NCBI GenBank assembly: GCA_013214485.1
Contig: JABSSF010000006.1
Coordinates: 1-35,360 of the forward strand
From: Rickettsiaceae bacterium
GTDB lineage: Bacteria > Pseudomonadota > Alphaproteobacteria > Rickettsiales > Rickettsiaceae
Direction of reading: 5' to 3'
DNA: 35,360 nucleotides
Below are positions 24,645 to 35,276 of this stretch, piece after piece. The notes under the pieces were generated by a model. It was not told where the DNA came from, did not search any database, and was given only the letters and a program-made list of their open reading frames with translations. The translations under genes and the position numbers were made by a program. Position 1 is the stretch's first letter, and every line of letters begins with the position of its first letter.

Positions 24645-25829
24645 TTGCAAAAAAAAATATATTTTTTGGCTTTTATAATTATAGCAATAGTTAGTTTAAC
24701 AATTTTTGCTAAAATAAAATCAAGTCAGCGTTTAAATTATTGGGAACGTAAATATGTAAAATATTATAATCGTATACAAGAAAAAACTGGTGAGAAATAT
24801 ACTAAATATTTACCTAGTCCAGCCCCTGATCAATTATTGGAAGTTGATTTTGATAAAGTTGATGCTAAGCTAAAATCTCTTCCAAATTGGATGACTCAAG
24901 AAATAGAGCAAAAATTTTCTAAATACGAAAATTTTAGTACTCAGCATGTGTTAAAGTCTTATAACTTAGCTACAAACCAAGATAATTTTACACTTTTTAC
25001 TATTAAAAATGGTGTAGTGACTCATGAAAATAAATTTGAAGTCACCAGGGGGGATTTCTTATTTGTCATTAGTTTTTATGAAAAGATATTTGCTTATTTA
25101 AGTAGAAAGGGGTACATCAAGAATTTATCATTTGTATTATTAATTGATGATGCAATTTCAGGAGATTATTCTCATGTAAGTACTACAAATATTGCTCCTA
25201 TTTTGGTTTTTAGTAGAAATGATAATAAACACTTAGATAAAGATACAGTATTAGTACCTGATTGGTTTAGTCTTATGGGATGGGTATATAATATTGTCAA
25301 AATTGAAAAAGCTAATAAAGAATTTCCTTGGGAAAAAAAGTTAGAAATTGTTTTTTGGCGAGGAGGTAACGCTGATATAAGTGGGTATAGGCATGGATTA
25401 GTGGAGTTAAGTGCTAAATTAAAGCATCAGAAAATTGATGTTCAGTTTTCTCATGGTGCTGAAGCTACTACTGGATATGTGCAAGTTGAGGATCATATAA
25501 AATACAAATATCAGATTAGTATTGATGGTCTTACTTCTACTTGGGATAGGGTTGTATGGCAACTTTATTCTAATTGTGTTATGTTGAAACAAAGATCTGA
25601 TTTGGTGCAATGGTTTTATTCAGCTATCAAGCCTGGCAAGCATTATGTAGATGTAGGTACAAACCCTGATGAATTATTGTCTATTTTATCTAGTTATAGT
25701 GACGATGAATTAAAAGAAATTGCAGAAAATGGCCAGAAATTTGCTAAGGAAAATTTAATGCCTGAAGATATGATGGTCTACTTAATTGCTGTATTACAAA
25801 AATACGAAACTTTACAGAATTCTAAGTAG
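24645..25829 (+). CDS. GT90/CAP10-like glycosyltransferase with N-terminal membrane anchor
   Basis: IVFWRGGNADISGYRHGLVELS...VQVEDHIKYKYQISIDGLTSTWDRVVWQLYSNCVMLKQRSDLVQWFYSAIKPGKHYV...ENGQKFAKENLMPEDM; TTG start. Confidence 0.85.
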   Translation: MQKKIYFLAFIIIAIVSLTIFAKIKSSQRLNYWERKYVKYYNRIQEKTGEKYTKYLPSPAPDQLLEVDFDKVDAKLKSLPNWMTQEIEQKFSKYENFSTQHVLKSYNLATNQDNFTLFTIKNGVVTHENKFEVTRGDFLFVISFYEKIFAYLSRKGYIKNLSFVLLIDDAISGDYSHVSTTNIAPILVFSRNDNKHLDKDTVLVPDWFSLMGWVYNIVKIEKANKEFPWEKKLEIVFWRGGNADISGYRHGLVELSAKLKHQKIDVQFSHGAEATTGYVQVEDHIKYKYQISIDGLTSTWDRVVWQLYSNCVMLKQRSDLVQWFYSAIKPGKHYVDVGTNPDELLSILSSYSDDELKEIAENGQKFAKENLMPEDMMVYLIAVLQKYETLQNSK

Positions 25830-25892: not shown

Positions 25893-26081
25893 CAAACAAA
25901 AAAAGAGCCAGTTTAGAAATAGGTTTACTTAAGTTTGAGTATGATATTAAATTTTTATAGTTGAAAAAAAATCAAAAAAATTGTTGACTCAATAGACAAA
26001 AGTATGATACAACCATTTTATATAAAAACAAGAGAGGAAATAATTTATAGTTGTAATAACATCTAGGATAATTAACAATTG

Positions 26082-26405
26082 GCCGGGAGATTTGTTGTTA
26101 TAAAATAGCGTCATCGTAAAGACAATGAAGAATACACTCATGACATGTTTTTTAGCTCTAAGCGATAAGAAATTACTAAAACTTATTTAAAGTAAAAAAA
26201 TTAAAAAAGTGCTTGCAAATATTTTTTAGTTTGTTATTTTTAGCATGAGGTACTTCAAGAGACACCTTCAGCCGTAGGCGATTTTCATTTAATGAAGATC
26301 GGAACTCCTAGCTATAATAGCCGGGAGTTCCATTGTTATAAAATAACGTTTATCGTGAAAACAATGGAGCATGACTTACGGCATGTCTTTTGAGCTCCCG
26401 GCACT
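26082..26405 (+). ncRNA. candidate structured RNA element, two diverged tandem copies (offset 238 bp)
   Basis: Copies start near CCGGGAG 26083 and 26321, share TTGTTATAAAATA.CGT..ATCGT.AA.ACAATG...CATG.; strong hairpins in and just before copy 2. Confidence 0.5.
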
Positions 26406-26739
26406 TAGTTTAATAAGTATTATTAAAAAATTAATTAAGTGCCATATTTTTTGCATGACGTATCCAATAGTAAAGCTGAAATATAATAGCTTGTTTCTTG
26501 AAAATTTATCTTGTTATTGAGTTTTTGTTTAGTTTTTTATATTTAGTATGATTTGGGTTTGCAAGATATTTTTTAGCTGAAGAAGATACAATCCAGAGCA
26601 AAAAGTATGTAATGAAATCAACTGGATCACCACACTGACAAGCCCACTCGTGATGACGTTTTCCCTTTTTCAAGTTATTTGACTATATATTAATAAATTT
26701 AATAAAATATAAGAATTAGGATTGAAAGAGAATTTAAAA

Positions 26740-30221: not shown

Positions 30222-33200
30222 TTAAAAACTTATACCTTTGCTAAATTTGTTTTGATAAACTATTGATTCTGTACGATATCTAGATTGTAGGTAATTTAAA
30301 AAATTACTATTTTTTAAATAGGTTTTGATGAGTTGATTATTTAAACAATGTTTCATATACAATCTACTGTTAGCAAATGTTTTATTATGTCGCTGAATTT
30401 TATGTTGTTTTTTCATTAGTGTTAAATCTGCTCTTATTTGATCTATATAGTGATATTGACATTTATTAAATATTTTTTTAGAAATATCTAAAATATTACG
30501 TTCTTGGCGAAATAAACTAAGTATATCTCTATCTTTCATGATATTTAGTTGTTTTATCATTTTAATATCTCGATATAATTCATTAATGAAATTATTATTT
30601 TTATTGTAAACTCTAACTACTTTGTTAACATGATTAACTCTGCTTAAGGAATTAATATCTCGTACTTTGAGCAATTTTTTATCAGCAACAGTACGACAAA
30701 ATTCAAATTCTTCTTGTAATACCTGTAAATATTCCTCTGTAGTTTTAGCCTTATCTCTTCTATTACCAAAAATTTCTAATTTATTTAGCTTTTCAGCTAC
30801 CTTAAAATCTTGTTGTAGTATGTAGCCGAAATATTTATTATTTTCTAATTGAGAATAAGTTAAATTCTGCCACCATTTTGGATTATTGATATTATTATAT
30901 ATATTGATTGCTAGATTTCTTTTATCTTCTCTATCTACATTATATTCATAACCAGATTCAGTAAATTCAGCGCTTTTGGCAATAATATCAAAACAGCTTT
31001 TAGTAATTTTTCCTTGGTGTGAATGAATTAAATCTTTTTGGTCAATTTGATTTTGTTGCAATATAAAAATATCTCGTACTATTGTTTCGTGTAACTTAGC
31101 TCTGTTTGGATGTTGCGTCATTTTCAAATAAACTCGCTGATTATGATATCTCATATTAAGCTTTTGTTTATTTATATCAAATGCTGTTTGCTTATCTTGG
31201 TAAATATTTTCTACCTCCTTAAATATTTTTTCACTAATACCATTTTTATTTGCAGTGAAAATCCTTTCTTTAAACATCTGTCCGTGTGGCGAGTTATTAA
31301 TATAATCTATAACTGAGCTAACAACTATATCTTGATATAAAGCATCTTTACTATCTAAAAACTCATGCTTAGCTGGGTTTTGCAAATTTTCTTGGCTAAA
31401 AATACTTTCTTTTAATTTTGTTATAAGCCTACTATTACGCCGAATAGTTTGTTTATCATAATGCAGAGCTTGGCTTTTTCCTTGCCAAAATATTGTTTTT
31501 TCTAATGGATCTTTTAACTTAAATTCTTGGAATGATAACATTGAAGGTTTGAAATCGTCTCCAGGGGATTTGTTAATAATTCGTCTGATTTTTTCTATAG
31601 ATACGTGACCTGGTAATTTACTTGCCATATGCTAGTTCTCAGGTAATAATAATTCATCACTATTTACTATAGAAGCAAAACCAATATGGTTGTTGATTTT
31701 GTTAATTTCATGTAATGTTACTTTGGCTGCTTTTTTACTACCAGAATTGTTATCGTACCAAATTGCCACCTTATGTTCTTTAAAGTTTTTCCAATCTACT
31801 TTTTCTGCGTTTTGCACTCCACCACTCCAGGAAATAATATTATATTCAGGTAATACGTTAACAATTTTCTTTGCAACATTATTTTCAGGTACAATTAAAT
31901 TAACCTTATCATTATCAATTAATTGATCTTTATTATAAACTAAAATTTTAGGTTTGTATTCTATGGTTTCAGGGGTAGGGTCGGTTAAGCTATTTTTTAC
32001 TTCTTTAGTTATTATTTCTATAGCTTCTCTAATAGAACAATTTCTTGCTTCTTTTACTAATAAATAAATATTACCTCTTTCTTTATTGTTAAAATCATAC
32101 CATAAGCCGTTGGTTAAGTTCATTATTAGACTACCACATCTAATATGAAATCCTTCTTTTTTGATTTCATTTTTAGGATTAATCTTAGGGGCATACTTAA
32201 GAAATATCTTTTCAAAATCAGTTTCTTTTATCCCTACACTCATATTCATAAAATTATGTTTTGTTTCTGCTTCTTTAATCATAGTTTCCTCCAATTTTAA
32301 ACTTGATTTATTAAAATATTTATTCTTTTTTCCTATATAATTGATAAAATTTTGTTCAGATTTAGCAGGTGACATTTTTTCTAATGTTTCTATTTCAGCT
32401 ATTAAATTACGTTCTAAATTAGAGTCATTAAATTGTTTTAATTTTTGTTGATTATCGGCTAAATTTTCAGTAAATTTTTGATATTGTAATAATTTTTTAC
32501 CTAAGCCCTGATAATTGCTAAGTTGTAAAAATTGATTTTTATTAAAATCAAATAACCTAGAAAAACTATTGCCTTTTAAATTACCAAGTAGATAAGGATT
32601 TTTTGCAACCATTTCAGCAGCCATAAATTTGCCATTATACCGTACTAAATTAGACCAATTATCTAAAATATGTTTAGTAGAATTTTTATAAATTTGTTCT
32701 AAATATACTGGTAATAATTTCTGCTGATAGTCTTTAGTAGCGGTAATTATTTCTGTTAATTTATGCTTTTCTTGTAAGCAATTATCTAAATTTTGTAATA
32801 ATTTTTCTAGATGTAATTCATAGCCAGCTATTTCTTTAAGTAATGATTTATAACTTTGTTGAATTTTGTATTTATCTAATGTTTTTATAGCTTTAACTAA
32901 TTCTTGAAAATTATGGCTGTATTTGGCTAAATAGCTGGTCTTTTCCTGAACTAAATAGTGGCTTTTGCCTGCATGTTTTTCTAATGTTGCATAATTTAAA
33001 GAAAGCCTGATTATCTGTTGTTCATATAAATTATAATTTTTTAATATTTTCCTAGCATTTAATCTACGCTGTTGTTGTTGTTTAAATTCATGCCATAATT
33101 TATTTTCAATTATCTCAGTATCAGAATTACCTAAGTTTTCTATTTGCCATTTACGTTGATTGATTTCTTTGGTTAATTTAATTACTTCATTATTTGCAGT

Positions 33201-35276
33201 AATATATTCTTTAATTACTTTATAATTACATTCTTTGAGATAGTCGGAAGTGAAATTATTATTAATTTTACGTGAAATACTAATATTTAGGGCTATTAAA
33301 TCTAAAGTTTCTTGAGTGGTTTTAGCTTTAATGGAATAATATCTTCTAGCTAAATTATTATTTAAATCTAATCTATTATAGATATTATCATGTAGTTCTT
33401 TAATATTTGCATAGAATTTTACTTTTTCCCGATGCCGAGTCATCATTACGTTAAATGCTTCAAAACCAATTTGCTTTTCGTAGACTACAAAATTTTGATC
33501 TACTGTTACCCCTTGTAATTTATGAGCAGTTAAAGCATAACCATAATCTAATATTTTTCTATCATAATTAGCAGTATTGATATTTACTATTTTTTTGCTA
33601 TGATCTGCTTTAGTAAATAATACTTTGATTGTAGCATTGCCGTAATCATCTTGTGGCTTTATCGATAATATGGTGCCAACTTCGCCATTAAATATACCTA
33701 AGTCATTTAAGTTGCTAGTAACTACTATTTGTTCATTTTCACAAATATTTATATATTTACCGCCAGTATTGATAAGGTATTCAGTATCTTTAATAACACC
33801 TATATTTTTTAGTTTCTCTCTAACAGCTAAGTTAATTTTTCGAGCCATTTTATTAGTAAAAGTACAGATAGTTAGACTTCTTGTTGTTGCTAAATCTTTA
33901 ATGTTTAAGTTTTTGGCTTTCATAATATAACTATTGATGTAATCATTGAGTAATTTGTGATGTAGCTCATTTTGATTTGCTGTTATTTCTATGGAGTTAT
34001 CTTTTTGATATATTTCTAAAGCTTTTTTCACGTGAAAATTCCCTAGAAATATAGTAGCTTTACGATGTTCTTTATTTAATTGTCTTTTACTTTCTGATAA
34101 TTTGACTGCTCCGCATATTTCTAGTGCTTTTTGAAAAGCTCCTGCAAATCCAACGGCTGTAAGTTGATTATTATCACCAACGAGGATAATTTTTGCTTCA
34201 GCTTTAATAGCTTCTGATAGTAAGTAATCCATGTTACTAAGTTCTGTCATTGAAGCTTCGTCAATGATAATGGCGTGCTTGTTAGTTAGTTTTGTAGTGT
34301 TGTTAAGATATTCATTTTTTTGATAATAATCTGCTTGTAATTCTAGAGTGAATTTTTGTTGATTTTCCAGCAGCCATTTCTTACGCCATAAGCTGGCATT
34401 TTTTGTTTCGATATTAGTAGCTTTGAAAAGTTGTAATGCAGCACTACTACTAGGAGCTACGCCAATGATTTTGTAATTTGCTTTCTTGTATTGCTTAACG
34501 ATTTCTTGCATTACGAAAGTTTTTCCTGCTCCTGGGATACCATGTAATATTGCAATATCTTGACCATTGACAATATCTAAAACGGCTTTTTTTTGTGCTA
34601 AAGAAAGTTCGGGTTTTGAGTGATTAACAATTTGCTCTAGTAAATTTTTTTGTTCTAAATCGTTAAGCTTTATTCCTAATTTATGATTACTAGATTGATT
34701 TAATTGTTGTAGGTTCTTGATAAAGCGATTTTCGAGATCTAAGCGTTTAACTTTACCATATAAAGTTTCCCCCTTTAAATCTTGCTTATTAATTAATGTT
34801 AGTTTTGGAGATTTAATTACTTTTTCTAATAAAGAATTAATTAGTTTATCATTTTCTAGCTGCTTAAGCGGTGTATTCTCCTTTAATGTAACATATAAAG
34901 ATTCTTGTAAAGCTTTTTTTATTTCTTTTAAACTATATACAGGCTTATTTATATCTAACTTATCAATTATTCGCTCAGGGTCGTTGATAATTAATTCAGC
35001 ATTTTTTTGTACAATTTGTTTATTTTGTTTTTCCTTTGAAGAGTTTTTTACATAACGGCTAAGACCTTGATGTTTACTAGGAATTATATCAATACCTCTA
35101 TCAGCATAAGATAAGTGTGATACTCTTGTTGTAAAACCATGTTTAGCTAAATGCTTATTAATAATATCAGCAACTCCTTTACGTAAATAAGCGATAAAGG
35201 ATTTCTTTCCCCAATATAAAAATTTTTGTTTACTAAAATCTATATTACCAGCATTGTCCATAACTAATTTTCGCAT
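30222..35276 (-). pseudogene. traA: TraA-type conjugative relaxase/helicase/primase, lacking its relaxase domain and split by in-frame TAG (31632-31634)
   Basis: 1214-aa ORF: Walker A HGIPGAGKT, helicase motifs IIIDEASM, LVGDNNQLTAVG, GYALTAHKLQGVT, C-terminal primase/Toprim-like; the 468-aa ORF continues in the same frame after ENN-proximal LLLPEN*HMASKLPGHVS. Confidence 0.75.

Follow-up and report, generated by a model that had tools for sequence, protein, structure and literature searches.

The question raised by this locus is whether a cluster of GC-rich hairpins, lying between two genes in a Rickettsiaceae genome, is a functional RNA and, if so, what such an RNA might do. A first-pass annotation of the window (the whole stretch of 35,360 nucleotides that was analysed) had read the hairpins as a possible attenuator or RNA switch of no known family. 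The hairpins do belong to a genuine RNA that evolution has conserved, a structured and pseudoknotted molecule of ~160 nt at 26246-26405 on the forward strand, here called W1. Our main reading, to which we give a probability of roughly two in three, is that W1 is a full-length, divergent relative of sRNA-Xcc1, and that its family consists of same-strand antisense leaders with a masking 5' half, from which the antisense part would be released by RNase P.

A structured RNA with competing stems

Every segment on which the switch proposal was built is present at its position on the forward strand: GATTTTCATTTAATGAAGATC at 26280-26300, the hairpin arms GGAACTCC (26301-26308) and GGAGTTCC (26324-26331), the pair CATTGTT...AACAATG, which falls within 26330-26367, and the long-range partners GCCGGGAG (26320-26327) and CTCCCGGC (26395-26402). 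The two GC-rich pairings are indeed mutually exclusive, bases 26324-26327 being common to both. Nor do the structures arise by chance. Positions 26270-26450 (+) fold at -57.8 kcal/mol against -33.5 +/- 3.75 kcal/mol for shuffled sequences (z = -6.47), and none of 200 dinucleotide shuffles folds equally well. The minus strand gives z = -4.9, the plus strand folding better. The features of the element are as follows, R1 and R2 being the covariance models described below. The P1 helix, the 5' hairpin with PK1, the terminator-like hairpin and the tandem copy W2 were absent from the first-pass annotation.

26046-26166, forward strand: W2, degenerate tandem copy of the RNA (R2 45 bits, E 2.4e-8, own genome; R1 29 bits)
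26213-26240, forward strand: weak promoter-like site directly ahead of the RNA, TTGCAA - 16 nt - TATTTT, matching the consensus at 8 of 12 positions
26246-26405, forward strand: W1, the whole structured RNA (R1 and R2 matches in its own genome; folding z = -6.5 over 26270-26450)
26249-26266, forward strand: P0 hairpin, GGT..ACC, whose loop strand CTTCAAGAGACA (26253-26264) pairs with 26384-26394 (PK1)
26271-26278, forward strand: 5' strand of P1, GCCGTAGG, pairing with CTTACGGC at 26375-26382 and enclosing the hairpins
26279-26301, forward strand: P2 hairpin, CGATTTTCATTTAATGAAGATCG, from the minimum free energy fold; position conserved in homologues
26301-26331, forward strand: P3 hairpin, GGAACTCC/GGAGTTCC, mutually exclusive with PK2; pairing conserved
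26320-26327, forward strand: 5' strand of PK2, GCCGGGAG, an acceptor-like stem; covariation
26320-26410, forward strand: sRNA-Xcc1-like 3' half (RF02221 model positions 1-87; 39.3 bits, E 6.6e-6)
26330-26367, forward strand: P4 hairpin with a conserved internal loop, TATAAAATAAC...GTGAAAAC (TATACAATAG...AAAG in relatives)
26370-26385, forward strand: hairpin 2, CATG(ACTTACGG)CATG, its loop being the hypervariable antisense seed plus the 3' strand of P1
26384-26394, forward strand: 3' strand of PK1, TGTCTTTTGAG, second antisense block; covariation
26395-26402, forward strand: 3' strand of PK2, CTCCCGGC; covariation
26400-26452, forward strand: terminator-like hairpin GGCACTTA...TTAAGTGCC (26400-26443), then ATATTTTTT (-13.7 kcal/mol, z = -3.8)

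The terminator-like hairpin has GGC in common with PK2, and its loop is too long for it to appear in a simple terminator scan. A sigma-70-like site matching at least 9 of 12 positions lies just upstream of the RNA in 52% of 99 homologues, compared with 15% of shuffles.

Homologues and covariation

At the DNA level, a search of relatives first picked out two same-family genomes with homologues, and then several copies in each. Covariance model R1 was built from these same-family copies and R2 is a broader model. W1 scores 119 bits with R1 (E 5e-28, whole own genome searched) and 109.4 bits with R2 (E 2e-24, positions 1-160 of 160), both scores being favoured by the presence of the window sequence in the seed. 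The full-length R2 match takes in P0, P1, P2, the P3 region and the strands of PK1 and PK2. Searches with the two models at E <= 1e-4 detected the RNA in 42 members of a 299-genome sample of the phylum; nine matches (R2) lie in the window's own genome. Plasmids searched directly by BLAST with the window element gave no match. A similar element occurs in 161 of 5,426 complete E. coli genomes, one of which has it in 13 places.

Covariation was measured on 99 homologues, own-genome matches among them, aligned to a covariance model; the models behind this alignment held neither PK1 nor PK2 as pairs. Across P1, PK1 and PK2 together, 90.2% of cells are paired. There are 449 double-changed cells against 131 in shuffles, a count that no shuffle reaches, and the covariation score is 0.534 against 0.171 for shuffles and at most 0.112 for controls with slid partners. 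P1 is 96% paired with all seven pairs compensated; in a MAFFT alignment of 13 sequences unfitted to structure it is 91% paired, again with both-side changes at 7/7 pairs. Its sequence differs in nearly every same-family copy, complementarity always being kept. PK1 is paired in 79% of cells, with compensatory changes at seven of eight pairs, and PK2 in 94.7%, with such changes at six of eight. For P3, the competing hairpin, pairing is kept in 83.5% of cells and 6/7 pairs are compensated. Because P3 and PK2 are both conserved with compensation, both alternatives of the switch are under selection. The proposal of an RNA switch or riboregulator whose stems exclude each other gains support from covariation in homologues on each side.

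The comparison shows a ~160-nt RNA in which an sRNA-Xcc1-like 3' half is docked on a 5' half through P1 and PK1. In the 3' half the acceptor-like PK2 stem encloses P4 together with a small hairpin. Folding of an eight-member alignment with no prior structure (RNAalifold) likewise yields a fold resembling RF02221, the sRNA-Xcc1 family.

The 3' half is a relative of sRNA-Xcc1

An Rfam scan of the window at the gathering score returns a tRNA alone, and RF02221 surfaced only on scanning the homologues or a short stretch, a filter effect. The view that the element belongs to no known family is partly mistaken: the 3' half matches RF02221 clearly, although at 39.3 bits it falls short of the curated gathering score (53). 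Scores reach 53.4 in relatives from across the order, and six phage-type relatives exceed the cut-off with 61-86 bits. The long-range pairing of 26320-26327 with 26395-26402 proposed at the outset is the outer stem of RF02221. The Rfam model starts at this PK2 stem and covers the 3' half only, the ~80-nt 5' half (P0, P1, P2 and the 5' strand of P3) being conserved and outside it. By RACE, sRNA-Xcc1 is reported as a stable product of 88 nt (PMC2996969), close to the length of the 87-position model. A separate observation is that a 2.2 Mb genome of the same order (G103) contains thirteen RF02221 matches, at least one of which (L058) has an HTH regulator downstream.

Genes downstream of the RNA

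An ORF lies downstream of the RNA in 92 of 99 members, at a median distance of 47 nt and usually with a Shine-Dalgarno sequence. Phages, prophages and plasmids have the RNA just upstream of antirepressor-type genes on the same strand. By profile, these antirepressors include Bro-N, AntA, KilA-N, Rha, P22_AR and ORF6N types, and the other downstream products comprise HTH regulators, one ZorA, one HSDR_N protein, a serine recombinase and many unknowns. Among named records, a KilA-N gene follows the RNA in Vibrio phage VaK and Acinetobacter phage 4316; ant in Escherichia phage Rac-SA53; Ant in Haemophilus phage Aaphi23, Aggregatibacter phage S1249, Pasteurella phage Pmp2 and Escherichia phage vB_EcoP_phi296; an antirepressor in Bordetella phage vB_BaM-IFTN1; and an AntA/AntB gene in E. 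coli. Antirepressor-type genes also come after the RNA in Klebsiella, Pantoea and Pasteurella plasmids, the Klebsiella gene being KilA-N by profile.

A different setting is found in two genomes of the same family (G001 and G024), where dispersed copies of the RNA are preceded by a promoter-like site and followed by a Shine-Dalgarno sequence and a peptide ORF. The peptides are of 51-62 aa with one hydrophobic segment, multi-copy, and of the pattern MEYNFIADLLAKFAACSD.IKA...IKQTITESIKL. Peptide-linked loci are L036, L010, L011, L028, L038, L039, L040 and L042 in these genomes, together with L070 and L071. Two of the peptides were compared with Pfam and NCBIfam and matched no family there. They are candidates for a type I-like toxin or a regulator.

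Other neighbours deserve mention in their own right. At locus L055 (1651-2868) a MotA/ExbB-like protein, whose best PADLOC match is ZorA of Zorya, is encoded 40 nt after a copy of the RNA, and a phage-defence gene may there share the same RNA control. Lipoprotein-like proteins of ~145-151 aa recur downstream of the RNA (L047, L059, L049, L063 and L083); they have a 'Y(L/I)(Q/K)CYAL'-like motif in common and come from several families of the order.

A probable antisense seed, its decoy and a ribosome-binding site

Within the RNA of phage-type members, the 5' half finds its complement in the loop of hairpin 2 and in the PK1 strand, and a second copy of the 5'-half strand, complementary to the same seed blocks, overlaps the Shine-Dalgarno sequence of the downstream gene. 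Phage Aaphi23 serves as an example, with TCGAAACCTTACAAACAG in the 5' half and ATCGAAAATAACAAACAGGAG ahead of the start codon. In the phages VaK and VPBES, which are ~90% identical in this stretch, 5' strand, loop and target are all altered jointly (CATAAG to CAAGGAAA). Such joint change of mimic, seed and ribosome-binding site (RBS) is the hallmark of an antisense RNA that carries within it a duplicate of its target.

Two tests, devised after the pattern had been noticed in nine loci, put figures to it; they replaced single-run and duplex shuffle tests of low power. At 16 phage, plasmid and E. coli loci the longest match between a loop and its own leader averages 7.1 nt, against 5.2 for swapped partners (permutation P <= 1e-5). 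In the direct-repeat test, the 5' box recurs downstream with 17 of 97 loci in the top 5%, where 4.9 are expected (P = 6e-6). The same two blocks can be seen by eye in eight later loci from phages, plasmids and E. coli, of which L160 has the sequence of L096. A comparison of seed-to-downstream duplex energies with the regions of other loci was GC-biased and uninformative. In the per-locus shuffle test only 12 of 97 loci reach P<=0.05; most being individually non-significant, an antisense target is therefore supported in phage-type members only. The peptide-linked copies of the same family have just one match, GGAGYTCA/TGARCTCC, at the Shine-Dalgarno sequence. The phage relatives appear to be same-strand antisense RNAs that close the RBSs of antirepressor genes, and the evidence points to control of this kind rather than to transcription attenuation.

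A possible route from leader to antisense RNA

The mechanism that we propose would begin with a leader RNA made from one promoter. While the RNA is intact, its 5' half would serve as a built-in target mimic masking the antisense blocks, with PK2 forming at the expense of P3. RNase P would then recognise the acceptor-like PK2 stem with its ACCA and cut at the 5' base of the stem, freeing the ~88-nt sRNA-Xcc1. Parted from the mimic, this could bind the RBS and repress the gene behind it, be it for an antirepressor, a toxin or a defence protein, as C4 does in phages P1/P7.

Release of the 3' half by RNase P is probable and inferred from an acceptor-like stem followed by NCCA, from precedents for the enzyme and from the match to the 88-nt size. 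(A/N)CC(A) comes after the PK2 stem in the majority of members, and U is the commonest base at -1, as in a tRNA precursor; in the window copy ACTT stands in place of ACCA. RNase P is able to cut pseudoknot RNAs ending in RCCA (PMC12710915), and the precursor of C4 is reported as one of its substrates (Hartmann 1995, listed in PMC11143913).

A more far-reaching version can be offered tentatively, at somewhat less than even odds. On this view, a self-masking antisense switch of wide occurrence would carry its own seed and decoy target; sRNA-Xcc1 would be its processed half, and RNase P cleavage, not transcription, would turn repression on. The hypervariable triplet of decoy, seed and RBS would change as a unit between mobile elements, and the switch would have been re-employed to control defence genes, ZorA for instance, as well as antirepressors and small membrane peptides.

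The window copy and competing explanations

W1 retains every helix despite strong sequence divergence. It sits between a glycosyltransferase family 90 gene (24645-25829; Pfam Glyco_transf_90, E 3.6e-26), which directly follows the tra cluster, and a carbonic anhydrase gene adjoining tRNA-Ala. The degenerate copy W2, without P2 and most of P3, lies 200 bp upstream of it. There is no ORF downstream of W1 on the plus strand. A search of the assembly for a two-block target elsewhere gave the element itself and one unrelated match, and an antisense duplex with its own downstream DNA is no better than shuffles. What comes after the RNA is a terminator-like hairpin and not a gene, and because of this W1 is most likely a stand-alone sRNA, at work or leftover, beside a conjugative gene cluster, or else an orphan that has lost its gene. 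The term attenuator, in the leader-peptide sense, is not supported: a terminator-like hairpin is present, yet no plus-strand gene follows. As to the wider neighbourhood, 4006-24540 of the window is an F-type conjugative transfer cluster (TraC, TraG, TraD-like) and 31632-35276 encodes a TraA-like relaxase/helicase with fmt and def genes adjoining; the whole resembles the amplified elements of Rickettsiales. Taken with the AT-richness of the genome, the tra genes and the fmt/def pair make a Rickettsiales host probable.

That W1 is a decayed, non-functional remnant of a mobile element which once had both RNA and gene seems rather unlikely. The missing ORF, the degenerate copy next to it and the site between a conjugative transfer cluster and tRNA-Ala would all suit such a history, but W1 has kept all its helices through compensatory changes (119 bits, R1) whereas W2 is visibly decayed, and the terminator-like hairpin after W1 also counts against decay. 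We regard as unlikely a type I-like toxin-antitoxin system in which the RNA represses small peptides with a single membrane span (MEYNFIADLLAKF... in same-family relatives), the window copy being an antitoxin that has survived loss of the toxin ORF. Most genes downstream of the family are non-toxins, the peptides lack Pfam and NCBIfam matches, and no small membrane peptide ORF adjoins the window RNA, though relatives have one. What commends it is the presence of several dispersed RNA-peptide units per genome in two relatives, comparable but more distant peptides in L070 and L071, a small hydrophobic ORF after the RNA in L048, complementarity of GGAGCTCA and TGAGCTCC at the Shine-Dalgarno sequence, and the place of sRNA-Xcc1 ahead of symE in Xanthomonas integrons (PMC12444791).

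The mutual exclusion of P3 and PK2, both conserved by covariation, could also be that of a cis-acting riboswitch or RNA sensor, in which a ligand or temperature flips P3/PK2 and so controls the Shine-Dalgarno sequence by CTCC/GGAG pairing. PK2 has a CTCC able to pair with a downstream GGAG, P4 has a conserved internal loop and the downstream genes are diverse. This is nonetheless improbable: the hairpin-2 loop and P1 are the most variable parts and track the target, as expected of an antisense RNA and unlike an aptamer, nearly identical phages differ in target and loop together, and a stable 88-nt product of the 3' half has been reported (PMC2996969). Least probable by far is that the inverted repeats, which lie close to tra genes and to the gene of a TraA-like relaxase/helicase, form an oriT or act otherwise at the DNA level in the adjoining conjugative element. 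Homologues have G-U wobble pairs and a strand-specific promoter, Shine-Dalgarno sequence and start codon, they occur in phages and in chromosomes with no conjugation genes nearby, and the plus strand folds better. Both oriT and a classical attenuator were set aside, given the RNA-level signals in homologues and the lack of a gene after the window copy. No transposon-end match was seen for the hairpin region.

Significance and comparison with known systems

What is new here is the 5' half absent from the Rfam model, together with the link to antirepressors and the three-way co-variation of mimic, seed and RBS. In the literature searched, mainly openly available papers, a link between sRNA-Xcc1 and antirepressors was not found, and sRNA-Xcc1 was mentioned together with prophages in a single paper. 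The RF02221 family model leaves out half of the RNA, and a family discussed for more than 10 years as a virulence sRNA gains a testable function, tied to the lysis-lysogeny decision through antirepressors. Matches to sRNA-Xcc1 in pathogens have been taken as virulence factors (PMC8780938, PMC12189769), a reading that a role in prophage or mobile-element immunity would, if true, alter. A built-in target mimic, if true, would be an unusual design for antisense RNAs.

With sRNA-Xcc1 the element shares the stem around the AUACAAUA...GAA hairpin and the second hairpin (RF02221 alignment of the window; RNAalifold consensus), and the UUUUGAGC joint, with identical start and end positions. It differs in that RF02221 ends at the PK2 stem, whereas here a conserved 5' half of ~80 nt pairs with the 3' half; and in the literature sRNA-Xcc1 is treated as a trans-acting virulence sRNA, while the relatives found here are antirepressor leaders with an RBS-complementary target. 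In Xanthomonas integron cassettes sRNA-Xcc1 lies upstream of symE (PMC12444791), which recalls SymE/SymR, but SymR of E. coli is an RNA encoded in cis to symE and the RNA described here is on the same strand as, and upstream of, the next gene.

IsrK of Gifsy-1 (RF01394) is a prophage RNA with a short form and a form that leads an antirepressor mRNA (PMC4825925). The family has in common with it the position in prophages as leader of an antirepressor mRNA; the short IsrK, however, activates translation, and the RNA here has no Rfam match to IsrK. A parallel in action is the C4 RNA of P1/P7 (RF01695), with the c4-a1b1 and c4-2 motifs, which is likewise encoded on the same strand ahead of antirepressors and complementary to the RBS region. 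These C4-type traits, a downstream antirepressor and RBS complementarity, are found in the phage-type relatives, the window copy being without an ORF or a detected target. Neither RF01695 nor RF02944 (c4-2) matched the RNA in any Rfam scan, and the present family has another fold, long-range pseudoknots and a 5' target-mimic domain. Our verdict is that the family is homologous to sRNA-Xcc1, and that it works like C4 yet is not C4.
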